Source: Cyanobacteriota bacterium
GTDB lineage: Bacteria > Acidobacteriota > Vicinamibacteria > Vicinamibacterales > UBA2999
Direction of reading: 5' to 3'
Assembly: GCA_019752015.1 (NCBI GenBank)
Contig: JAIEMQ010000013.1
Span: 124,001-188,000, forward strand
Length of the DNA: 64,000 nt
This document shows positions 21,873-34,790 of this stretch, piece after piece. Both the position numbers and the translations under genes were made by a program. Positions within the stretch are counted from its first letter, which is position 1; every line of letters starts with the position of its first letter. Below the pieces are notes generated by a model. That model did not search any database, was not told where the DNA came from, and worked only from the letters and a program-made list of their open reading frames with translations.

Positions 21873-22462
21873 TGGCTCCCGCACCTCCGGTCTGGGCCGA
21901 CACGTGGCTTCGCCTGTTACTGCCCGCGCGCGATCGCGAAACGGTCTCCGGCGATTTGATGGAGGAGTATCGCGAGAACATCCGGCCGCAGAAATCGCAG
22001 CTGGCTGCCGATGCGTGGTACATCGGACAAGTCGCTCGCTTCGCCTGGCGGCAAGGATTATCGGCGCTCGCGCTCGCCGCGATTTATGAGAGCCGGCTGT
22101 TGCTCGATTGGTTCGTCCCCACAACGAACTTCGCACCACGCTCTGAGGTCACGACGCTGCTGATGATCAGCACGCTGCTCGTCATCGGCGCTGCCTCCAC
22201 AATGAGAGCGCGTTCGTTCACGGCGGGCGTGGCAAGCACCGCCGCTGCGGTGATTGGGTCGGCCATCATCTGCACGGTTGCCACGGGGTTCATCTATGCG
22301 AATTGGCGAAGTGCCGAGGTATTGGCCGCCATCAACGGAAGCGGCGGGCTACGTGAAGCGTTCACGCTGCCCATCATGCTGATCGTGCCCGGCACGATCA
22401 TCGGCGCTCTTGGTGCCCTCGTCGCGTCGCTCAGCCACAGCCAGAATCGATCCACAGATTAA
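21869..22462 (+). CDS. Permease-prefix-domain membrane protein
   Basis: A 197-residue protein. The N-terminus (WADTWLRLLLPARDRETVSGDLMEEY) is the permease prefix domain usually found in front of MacB/FtsX-type permeases next to padR. Here it is followed only by three or four hydrophobic segments (TTLLMISTLLVIGAAS, VASTAAAVIGSAIICTVATG, LPIMLIVPGTIIGALGALVA), so no full permease is present. Translationally coupled to padR. Its stop codon lies inside the left terminal repeat of the insertion described below, so the last few residues (NRSTD) are repeat-encoded. Confidence 0.7.
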   Translation: MMAPAPPVWADTWLRLLLPARDRETVSGDLMEEYRENIRPQKSQLAADAWYIGQVARFAWRQGLSALALAAIYESRLLLDWFVPTTNFAPRSEVTTLLMISTLLVIGAASTMRARSFTAGVASTAAAVIGSAIICTVATGFIYANWRSAEVLAAINGSGGLREAFTLPIMLIVPGTIIGALGALVASLSHSQNRSTD

Positions 22463-22476
22463 TCACAGATTGGGAG

Positions 22477-22615
22477 GCGACCCACGCCGGCCTTCGGCCG
22501 GCGCCGACGAGCAAGAGGTTCCCAAAATCGAGAGACCACCAGCGCAGAAGCGTCTCTCGATTTGGGAACCTCTTGTTCGTCGGCAGCGCGGGGCGAAGCC
22601 CCGCGCGCGGGTCGC
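22477..22615. repeat. Cloverleaf-like compound palindrome
   Basis: An outer stem GCGACCC/GGGTCGC (22477-22483 with 22609-22615) encloses three hairpins. These are a left GCCGGCC hairpin (22486-22502), a central stem of about 30 bp (22505-22535 with 22551-22581, one G-T wobble and one bulged A) and a right GCGCGGGGC hairpin with GAA loop (22586-22606). It fills the gap between the permease-prefix gene and the GxxExxY gene. Confidence 0.85.
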
Positions 22616-22755
22616 TCGCAATAATTTCGATCGAGCCTTGAGCTCCGTGTCGCAACATCTGCGCTTGTGGGCGTCGTCTCGAAGTGCGATTTGAGCATTA
22701 TCGAAGGAAATCGCCGCCAGTTCGCGCGGCCCGCGCGTTGCAGCTTGATCCGGCC

Positions 22756-23130
22756 ATGCAGGACCAACCACGGGACAATCAAACGTTTGAAATCATCGGC
22801 GCAGCGATGGAAGTACATCGCAAGCTGCACCGGGGGCTATTCGAAGACTTCTACTGCGAGGCACTCGCCATCGAATTGTCGCTTCGCGGCATCCCGCATC
22901 AACCGCAATGCGCCATTCAGCTCGAATACAAAGGTCGTCCTCTGAAACGGCCGCATCATCTCGACTTCATCTGTTTCGGAGACGTCGTTGTCGAGGTGAA
23001 GGCCGTGTCCGCGCTAACGCCGGCGGACGAGGCGCAACTTCTAAACTACCTGGCAATGACCAAGATCAAACGAGGCTTGCTCGTGAACTTCGGGAGCAAG
23101 TCCCTCGAGTACAAGAGAATGGTTTTGTAA
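22756..23130 (+). CDS. GxxExxY protein (PD-(D/E)XK nuclease-like), copy 1
   Basis: A 124-residue protein with the family signature GLFEDFY (G-x2-E-x2-Y) after FEIIGAAMEVHRKLH, and a nuclease-like core LDFICFGDVVVEVKA (D, then E-x-K). It ends LLVNFGSKSLEYKRMVL, typical of the family. The PD-(D/E)XK relationship is established for the family; its biological function is not known. The ATG at 22756 matches the family's start, because upstream codons lack similarity. The stop codon lies within the first unit of a 24-bp tandem array. A second, divergent copy is at 34344-34739; both are bracketed by inverted repeats. Confidence 0.85.
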   Translation: MQDQPRDNQTFEIIGAAMEVHRKLHRGLFEDFYCEALAIELSLRGIPHQPQCAIQLEYKGRPLKRPHHLDFICFGDVVVEVKAVSALTPADEAQLLNYLAMTKIKRGLLVNFGSKSLEYKRMVL

Positions 23131-23220
23131 TCTGTGGATCCGAACGACTTGTAATCTGTGGATCCGATCAATTTGTAATCTGTGGATCCGATCAATTTGT
23201 AATCTGTGGATCGGACCAAT
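23125..23220. repeat. Four 24-bp tandem repeats
   Basis: Units start at 23125, 23149, 23173 and 23197, each opening TTGTAATCTGTGGATC; units 2 and 3 are identical. A truncated unit continues to 23240. The spacing is constant with no variable spacers, so it is not a CRISPR array. Confidence 0.95.
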
Positions 23221-23238
23221 CTGTGTTTAATCTGTGGA

Positions 23239-24324
23239 TCAAGGTGTGGCCGCGGCGCCAGGTAACTCACCGAGCGCCTGTGGCACCGGCTCGAATCGGC
23301 GGCCGAAGCCTTGGAGCTGCCCCTCACGGCTGACCGTGATCAACTGCGTTTGCGTCTGCCGCACATCTCGCCGCACATACGGCTGGAGTCCGATCTCGCC
23401 GGCGGCAGCGGCGGTGACGCTTGGCTTGCCGCTCATCGGATCAAAACCAAGGATCTGATTCGACACCAGCGGCATCAACAGCGCGTCGCCGAGGCGCAAC
23501 GGTCCACCCGCGGGACGCGATGAGAGATTCGCTTTCCACCGCAGGTTGCCGGACTTGCGATCGACGGCGCGCAGGATGTTGTCGCGCGACGCGAAGTAAA
23601 TCCGCTTGTCGTCGGCGGTGGGGATGCCGGCAATGTCGCCGCCGATGTCCCACGTCCAGCGTTCGCGCCCGCGCGTGAGATCAACGCTCACGACCTTTTT
23701 GTCTCCGGTCCCGAACACCAGCTGATCGTCGAGCGCAAGAAGCGCTGTCACCGGCGCCGACAGCGTCTTCTCCCACACCGTCTCGCCGTTCGACAGTTGC
23801 AGCGCGACCAGGCGGGTGTCGGCGAGCGGCAGGAACAGTCGATCGAGCGCGGGGCCCGGCGCGCCCGCGAGCGGCGCACCGAGTTGACGACGCCACACCA
23901 ACACGCCGTCGTTCGCGCGAAACGCCGCGAGATCGCCGGCCGTGGTGGAGGCGAGCAGCCACCCCGTATCCCAGTACAACGGAACAGCCGCGCCTCCCGG
24001 CAGCGGCGTCTGCCATTTCATCGTGCCCGTCGCGGCCTCGCGCGCTTCGATCACCTGATCGGTCACGGTGAACACGAGGCCTTCGCCGGTCGCTGGAGTA
24101 AACGGTGTCTGCAGATCGAGCTGCCAGCGAATCGTGCCGCGGTTCAGATCCACCGCCACGAGCTTGCCGCCGTTGAGAGGCACGTACGCGGTCGTGGCAT
24201 CAAAGCCTGGTGCGGCCGACGCCGGCGTTTCGAACGCGGTGACCCAGCGCGCGTCGAACGACGCGGGTGCGGGCGTTGCCGGCGCCTGAAACAGCGCGAG
24301 CAGCAGCGCGAAGAAGAGCGCCAT
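23239..24324 (-). CDS. PQQ-binding-like beta-propeller protein (BamB-like)
   Basis: A 361-residue protein with an N-terminal signal peptide (MALFFALLLALFQAPATPAP) followed by a seven- or eight-bladed propeller of PQQ-type repeats, for example GGKLVAVDLNRGTIRWQLDL, ANDGVLVWRRQLGAPLAGAP, KKVVSVDLTRGRERWTWDIG and DNILRAVDRKSGNLRWKANL. No catalytic residues of quinoprotein dehydrogenases are seen, so a structural or assembly role like BamB is more likely. The ATG at 24324 is preceded by an in-frame GTG. The TGA stop sits at the border of the right terminal repeat of the neighbouring element. Divergent from guaA. Confidence 0.75.
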   Translation of the reverse strand: MALFFALLLALFQAPATPAPASFDARWVTAFETPASAAPGFDATTAYVPLNGGKLVAVDLNRGTIRWQLDLQTPFTPATGEGLVFTVTDQVIEAREAATGTMKWQTPLPGGAAVPLYWDTGWLLASTTAGDLAAFRANDGVLVWRRQLGAPLAGAPGPALDRLFLPLADTRLVALQLSNGETVWEKTLSAPVTALLALDDQLVFGTGDKKVVSVDLTRGRERWTWDIGGDIAGIPTADDKRIYFASRDNILRAVDRKSGNLRWKANLSSRPAGGPLRLGDALLMPLVSNQILGFDPMSGKPSVTAAAAGEIGLQPYVRRDVRQTQTQLITVSREGQLQGFGRRFEPVPQALGELPGAAATP

Positions 24325-34169: not shown

Positions 34170-34184
34170 AACGCTCAGATTTAC

Positions 34185-34781
34185 ACCAGGGCCGCAGAAG
34201 GCGCAGATGGCTCAGATCAAAAAACGCCATATCGCGCTTGAAGTCATATCGCAAGATTTGCGACACGGTTCGCACGCATTTTCTCAGTCACGCCCGATTT
34301 CGGAGATTTCGCCGGGGCACACCGCTTGCGTCTGAAGAGCGGCATGTTCAACATCCCACCATCGTCACAAGACGCACGAACCTTCGCAATCATCGGTGCC
34401 GCGTACGAAGTTCACCGCGTTCTCGGCGCCGGCTACCTCGAAGTCTTCTACAAGGACGCACTCGAGATCGAATTCACCGAACGGCAGATCCAATTCCGGC
34501 GTGAGTTGCCGTGCTCAGTGCAATACAAGGGTCGGGACCTTCGTCGCGACTATCACGTCGATTTCATTTGCTTCGACGAAGTCGTCCTCGAAATCAAAGC
34601 ACGCTCCGTGACCGGACCAGCGGACCACGCTCAGGTGATCAGCTACCTCGCATCCACGCGGAAGCGTCACGGCCTGCTCTTGAACTTTGGAACCTCGAAA
34701 CTCGAACACAAGCGATTCATCTGGGAACCACGAACCTGACTGAGGTAAGTCTGTGCTTTCTGCGCCTTCTGTGGCCCTGGT
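34185..34781. mobile_element. Inferred 597-bp repeat-bounded element with second GxxExxY gene
   Basis: The 23-base repeat at 34185-34207 (ACCAGGGCC, then GCAGAAGGCGCAGA) recurs inverted at 34759-34781 with one mismatch. Between them lie about 135 bases without a gene and the GxxExxY gene at 34344-34739. The same inverted repeats bracket the gene-less segment 13558-13948. Mobility is inferred from the parallel with the element at 22449-23240; no transposase or target duplication is visible. Confidence 0.45.
34344..34739 (+). CDS. GxxExxY protein (PD-(D/E)XK nuclease-like), copy 2
   Basis: A 131-residue protein with signature GYLEVFY preceded by FAIIGAAYEVHRVLGA, and nuclease-like core YHVDFICFDEVVLEIKA (D, then E-x-K). 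The C-terminus HGLLLNFGTSKLEHKRFIW is typical. It is clearly related to copy 1 but far from identical, so the two are not a recent duplication. The ATG at 34344 is the first that gives the family N-terminus. Function unknown; the family fold implies possible DNA cleavage. Confidence 0.87.
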   Translation: MFNIPPSSQDARTFAIIGAAYEVHRVLGAGYLEVFYKDALEIEFTERQIQFRRELPCSVQYKGRDLRRDYHVDFICFDEVVLEIKARSVTGPADHAQVISYLASTRKRHGLLLNFGTSKLEHKRFIWEPRT

Positions 34782-34790
34782 GACTTACTC

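Follow-up and report, generated by a model that had tools for sequence, protein, structure and literature searches.

Introduction

The closest described counterpart of the element reported here is the RAYT-REP or REPIN system (TnpA_REP; PMC2817692, PMC3116915, PMC8266576), in which the gene of a small DNA-cutting enzyme lies within inverted repeats, gene-less doublets are dispersed between genes and the type of repeat is matched to the enzyme lineage. The RAYT enzyme belongs to the HUH group and the ends of its elements are single hairpins of 20-40 nt. In transposons of the Tn7 and Mu type, each end holds several direct repeats, which are the enzyme-binding sites and are inverted between the two ends, and 23S rRNA intervening sequences carry S23 or four-helix-bundle proteins. 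Homing enzymes with a PD-(D/E)XK fold exist as well. Among the small PD-(D/E)XK enzymes, the Rpn or YhgA-like nucleases (PF04754) are credited in the abstract of their description (PMC5350276) with RecA-independent DNA joining and a template-switch model, RpnA being without sequence specificity.

The present work concerns a 64,000-nt stretch of genomic DNA (the window), in which a compact element at 22449-23240 encloses a gene of the GxxExxY family between inverted ends. The element works like a RAYT-REPIN system and is not a member of it. Its enzyme is of the predicted PD-(D/E)XK fold instead of the HUH type, its ends are tandem arrays with a core of 6-7 bases in place of single hairpins, and genomes hold several gene copies with differing words; both kinds of element coexist in the genus with different repeats. 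The several direct repeats per end recall Tn7 and Mu, from which the element differs in having neither a DDE transposase nor an ATPase and in being smaller than 1 kb. GxxExxY also belongs to a Pfam family separate from that of the Rpn nucleases, whose abstract (PMC5350276) describes no bracketing arrays or MITE derivatives of the kind found here.

Architecture of the window elements

The ends of the element (left, 22449-22473, + strand; right, 23216-23240, - strand) are 25 nt long, inverted and complementary at 24 of 25 positions. The left end contains two CACAGATT words and its motif recurs at about ten cloverleaf loci of the host; the right end is extended by an array of four tandem 24-bp units (23124-23219, + strand), each with the TAATCTGTGGATC core of that end. 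With at most one mismatch allowed, AATCTGTGGAT occurs at six sites in the window, all six within the element, against a mean of 0.5 by chance. The neighbours of the GxxExxY gene are a padR operon and propeller genes; the left neighbour's stop codon (TAA, 22460-22462) is supplied by the left end itself, and the convergent propeller gene has its stop at the edge of the right end. The initial annotation had described the inverted ends, the four units sharing their core and the stop codons of both convergent neighbours in or beside the ends, and all of these were recovered at the positions given here. No second gene was found inside the element, where PDDEXK_3 is the sole Pfam match above the cut-off and neither a DDE nor a Y1 (HUH) transposase is present.

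In two congeners, other inverted arrays composed of AATAACCAA and GATTGG words lie between aminotransferase and propeller genes (L091, ~1390-1450; L092, ~1330-1470), at the place taken up in the host by the padR operon and the window element.

The window contains a second GxxExxY gene (match over 34362-34721, + strand; NCBIfam GxxExxY E=7.5e-37), which lies between a left end with a differing word, CACCAGGGCCGCAGAAGGCGCAGATGGCTCAGA (34184-34216, + strand), and a right end which is its inverted copy (34750-34782, - strand). The ends of this second element (34184-34782) read CACCAGGGCCRCAGAAGGCGCAGA, unlike those of the first, and a CTTTCTGAG array is located behind it.

The cloverleaf palindrome

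The three-hairpin palindrome previously proposed for the interior of the element is real: the stretch 22478-22614 folds into a cloverleaf with a closing stem, two short hairpin arms and a central stem of 33 pairs with an AGAGA..TCTCT apex, at a minimum free energy (MFE) of -110 kcal/mol compared with -57 (s.d. 4.4) in shuffles. The geometry is kept in other copies with differing stem sequences, the central stem having 29-36 pairs in nearly all of 14 cloverleaf copies. Since MAFFT alignment of whole cloverleaves was poor, the central stems were compared by apex anchoring. At the 26 loop-proximal pairs, Watson-Crick pairing amounted to 88% within a copy's own stem versus 39% when arms were combined across copies, and at least two pair types were seen at all 26 positions, which is to be read as covariation and not as an unbiased estimate because the copies were picked as foldable. 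High own-copy pairing despite sequence change indicates that the palindrome is maintained while its sequence drifts, and this upkeep could come either from selection for structure or from a copying mechanism which itself produces perfect palindromes. The stem mismatches (20 G-T, 14 A-C) revealed no strand preference.

One cloverleaf copy (C4) sits in an element with ends of another word, CACGAAG, and the cloverleaf can thus be seen as a module common to several word families. It is an optional part, most gene-bearing copies being without it. An Rfam search of the palindrome returned sub-threshold miRNA-like matches only, which were set aside as chance hairpin similarity.

The GxxExxY protein

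The open frame of the gene runs from 22684 to 23130 on the + strand, with a likely start at ATG 22756, giving a protein of 124 aa (22756-23130). It matches Pfam PDDEXK_3 (PF13366; E=2.3e-34) and NCBIfam GxxExxY (TIGR04256; E=2e-38), and scores of 118.7 bits (cut-off 22) and 131.2 bits (cut-off 35) pass the curated cut-offs. The residues G-LF-E-DF-Y, D (D70), E-x-K (E80-x-K82) and QxxxY (Q94xxxY98) are all present; in an alignment of 80 sequences D70, K82 and Q94 show no variation and E80 and Y98 next to none. Profiles and residues therefore agree with the initial annotation of an intact gene bearing GxxExxY and D/ExK motifs.

A PDB sequence search with the protein gave no match. Its predicted model (pLDDT 93.6, pTM 0.86) has as best solved structural match SSO0001 (PDB 4ic1; Foldseek E 1.5e-4; VIA-align Z 10.3 over 99 residues, rmsd 3.3), an established Cas4 protein of Sulfolobus, and restriction enzymes, AddAB, lambda exonuclease and Holliday resolvase follow at lower Z. 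The core fold and the motif order D, ExK, QxxxY are common to GxxExxY and the Cas4 or RecB type, but GxxExxY has 124 residues against ~200 in Cas4. None of the cysteines is invariant or nearly invariant in the 80 sequences, so the iron-sulphur part of Cas4 is missing from GxxExxY. Cas4 proper was ruled out on account of the absent conserved 4Fe-4S cysteines and of the genomic context, which consists of the padR operon and propeller genes with no adjoining CRISPR genes. With high confidence we predict GxxExxY to be a minimal Cas4/RecB-like PD-(D/E)XK nuclease, and its modelled fold and D...ExK...QxxxY motif place it in the Cas4/RecB branch of that superfamily; the fold group named at the outset is upheld by the predicted fold and the motif conservation.

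At another locus (L217, 3001-3348) a GxxExxY gene has an in-frame stop exactly at the ExK lysine and bracketing arrays were not detected around it; it is probably a decayed copy.

Dispersal through the host genome

Whether the repeats are unique to the window spot had been posed as a check, and they proved to be dispersed through the host genome (5.9 Mb), in which TAATCTGTGGATC has 12 sites versus 0 for the reversed pattern and tandem AATCTGTG pairs have 55 matches versus 2 for the reversed control. Three kinds of copy were distinguished, namely gene-bearing copies, gene-less copies and one-ended arrays. The gene-bearing copies are the window element, C13:70828-71677, with a cloverleaf on either side of the gene, and C1:432284-432983. 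The gene-less copies, of ~200 bp, consist of a cloverleaf between inverted CACAGATT arrays (C2, C6, C10, C11, C12, C27, C28, C51, C61 and C64), so that ends and cloverleaf occur at about ten loci without an intact gene. Being short, gene-less, present at many sites and furnished with inverted ends common to a gene-bearing element, they are MITE-like by definition. Another genome, G107, has gene-less inverted pairs of ~75 bp (TTCACCACAGAG...CTCTGTGGTGAA) with differing loops at unrelated sites.

Association of arrays with GxxExxY genes

All seven GxxExxY genes of the host lie within inverted short arrays whose word differs from lineage to lineage (CACAGATT, CACAGAAGG, CACGAAGAA, CACGGAGA, CACAGAAA), and 21 of the 29 loci in the genus score above the 95% level of a null built from swapped flanks. 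A search for related loci with the seven host proteins found no sufficiently conserved stretch. A cross-phylum scan, with one genome per species, covered 80 GxxExxY loci from many phyla, two archaea included, and 77 were scored by the gapless inverted match between the two 400-bp flanks. A score of at least 15 was reached by 57 of the 77 (74%), compared with 2 of 241 control positions shifted along the same contigs (1%) and 23 of 228 swapped flanks, the last figure being elevated by words common to unrelated loci. Arrays were undetected at about a quarter of the cross-phylum genes, mostly Bacteroidota-type sequences. A Bacteroides finegoldii record exhibits a minimal element of 450 bp between radA and the next gene. 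The bracketing of other GxxExxY genes, which the initial annotation had put forward as a check, is hence widespread.

The generic word is CAC[A/G][G/A]A plus 2-4 bases and varies by GxxExxY lineage. Across 119 genomes of the phylum, triplet arrays of CACAGAG were found in 23 of 45 genomes with GxxExxY versus 4 of 74 without (Fisher p=1.2e-8, optimistic since the genomes are related), with 246 versus 15 matches. Three of the four array-positive genomes without the gene have one or two matches; G169 is incomplete and a congener has the gene. The scanned word was absent in 22 of the 45 GxxExxY genomes, as would be expected if words differ, which is not proven. On the protein tree, whose deep forks are poorly resolved, word class changes 27 times against a shuffled mean of 38.5, with none of 200 shuffles as low. 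The suggestion that the nuclease acts on and propagates the CACAGA/TCTGTG repeats is supported, with two amendments: the word varies by lineage and the cloverleaf is optional. Viral contigs scanned with the CACAGATT clade gave no match, phages gave two records of one halovirus and plasmids seven weak records; these nearly empty scans imply that the element is chromosomal and not phage- or plasmid-borne.

Such an association could also arise if the arrays had some other mover and GxxExxY were a passenger or accessory, for instance a gene retained between the ends for defence, toxicity or maintenance. The common occurrence of gene-less copies would accord with this, as would the four-helix-bundle protein TIGR02436, which holds the same place between inverted arrays, and the lack of any other enzyme gene inside the element was counted in its favour too. 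The correlation of array word with enzyme lineage, the rarity of arrays in genomes without GxxExxY and the conserved catalytic residues argue against it, and we consider the passenger role possible though rather improbable.

RAYT (HUH, Y1) transposases themselves deserve consideration as movers, with arrays and cloverleaves as REP- or BIME-type repeats and GxxExxY as a bystander, given that RAYT genes are found in 9 of 9 genus genomes, with 13 matches in the host, and that REPs are hairpins scattered between genes (PMC2817692, PMC3116915). However, 26 of 30 RAYT genes of the genus (L369-L398) are bracketed by unrelated REP-like inverted repeats, GGTGTCAGACACC, GGGGTCTGGCACC and CGGGGACTGACCCC, a result which also served as positive control for the flank test. 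Array words near RAYT genes number 0-1, and the arrays bracket GxxExxY genes instead. Because the RAYT genes are bracketed by other repeats they do not appear to be the movers of the arrays, and a bystander role of GxxExxY beside them is very improbable.

Occupied and empty sites

Occupied and empty sites at the same junction, also named beforehand as a check, were found among nine congeneric genomes, which are too distant to place the exact insertion base. Between thrB and thrC the host (G000) has a 235-bp gene-less copy, whereas the two genes abut or overlap in 7 of 8 congeners; G001 has a different element there with a 12-bp-period repeat. Before metB, the gap of the host is filled by CACAGATT with a cloverleaf. 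Among the congeners it holds inverted pairs of CACAGAG in G005, in G007 and, as CACCGAG, in G006, a decayed inverted pair in G008, the left end only in G003, an AGTAGCC element in G004 and a ACCCGAGC array in G001, and is empty in G002. The contents differ by species, meaning that one gap took different word families, and the solitary left end in G003 illustrates the origin of one-ended arrays through decay. In a ribosomal operon of the host a one-ended array (C18:88376-88398; L011 / L231) fills the gap between the rpsE stop and the rpmD start. The same junction in congeners presents the picture seen at thrB-thrC and metB: the gap is either empty or filled by different words or a different palindrome. 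There is good support for mobility of the repeat family. By eye, no target duplication was recognised at ~12 host copies and five G107 MITEs.

Fixed intergenic gaps of conserved operons would be natural targets of a homing-type endonuclease which cuts its cognate empty site and leaves host recombination to copy the element in, a role known for other PD-(D/E)XK enzymes. The copies, however, lie at unrelated sites with no common flank and the same gap has different word families by species, which makes homing most unlikely.

Of the one-ended arrays, such as GCCACAGATTAGACACAGATT, 14 of 18 begin 1-9 nt past the stop of the preceding gene and in constant polarity, a position that would suit host regulatory or mRNA 3'-end sequences arisen in place and not mobile DNA. 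Precise occupied and empty differences at thrB-thrC and before metB, together with the existence of MITE-like inverted pairs, speak against an origin in place, and the one-ended arrays are explained as decayed left ends like that of G003; we attach hardly any probability to it. Across phyla, neighbouring stop codons fall within -15 to +7 of the element border in the majority of 42 cases, but gene calling in GC-rich DNA lacks the precision that a claim of targeting based on these distances would require.

Genome G150 (L299-L322, L339-L368) has ~40 copies of an IS5-like insertion sequence in which a truncated GxxExxY element follows immediately on the stop of the transposase gene. The apparent burst of 20 or more identical truncated copies was accordingly rejected as a burst of the GxxExxY element, and three gene-less IS copies were rejected as empty sites, being deletion scars at GATCCT microhomology.

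Elements with four-helix-bundle proteins

TIGR02436 (four-helix-bundle or S23-type) has many matches in 9 of 9 genus genomes, and inverted short arrays enclose its genes (L269-L298) in 20 of 29 cases, versus 2 of 56 controls. The bracketing is the same as that of GxxExxY, yet the protein is not a nuclease and its very diverse words (AGTAGCC, ATCAGGG, GACGGGGCGGCACTTCTT, CACGGGGGTTCAAC) are unrelated to CACAGA. This points to a broader class of elements that have inverted arrays in common but differ in their proteins, and the shared architecture raises the point that nuclease activity may not be the essential step.

Proposed mechanism and significance

Overall, the family is dispersed through the host in gene-bearing, gene-less and one-ended forms, its sites are occupied or empty between congeners, commonly right behind a stop codon, and its words are linked to the enzyme lineage. 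We favour, with reasonable though far from complete confidence, the reading that the window element is an autonomous member of a family of miniature mobile elements with GxxExxY as their mover. The association supports the original proposal of a nuclease propagating its repeats in the manner of RAYT-REP with another enzyme; from it we infer the link between enzyme and movement, cleavage and transposition by GxxExxY included.

As a working model, GxxExxY, without the iron-sulphur part of Cas4, would bind the tandem words, several sites per end as in Tn7- and Mu-type ends, and would cut the ends, the DNA close to them or the extruded cloverleaf. Joining of the element to a new site could then fall to host repair or to template switching, as the abstract on the unrelated Rpn nucleases proposes (PMC5350276), and gene-less copies with the matching word would be mobilised in trans. 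Words and enzyme would co-evolve, allowing several non-interfering families in one genome. Insertions would pile up behind stop codons mainly because they are harmless there, and this position may be only what selection leaves.

A search of full-text literature by family names and array words found no describing paper, its coverage excluding most subscription journals and bioRxiv so that priority cannot be claimed. We see an even balance of probability for the broader proposition that GxxExxY proteins are the enzymes of an unrecognised class of mobile DNA, in which a Cas4/RecB-type nuclease reads tandem-word ends; the class would extend over many bacterial phyla and some archaea, would be the source of the abundant CACAGAG, CACGGAG and CACGAAG arrays and would form a superfamily with the four-helix-bundle (S23) elements. 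The reading is directly testable with one enzyme, one word and one marked element. Enzyme chemistry is the basis on which mobile elements are classed, and a Cas4/RecB-like mover with tandem-word ends, if true, would constitute a class of its own, of the rank of RAYT/REPIN or casposons. It would also provide a first likely job for the nameless GxxExxY family, present in 45 of the 119 phylum genomes and in many other phyla, and an origin for widely present intergenic repeats described in no paper found.
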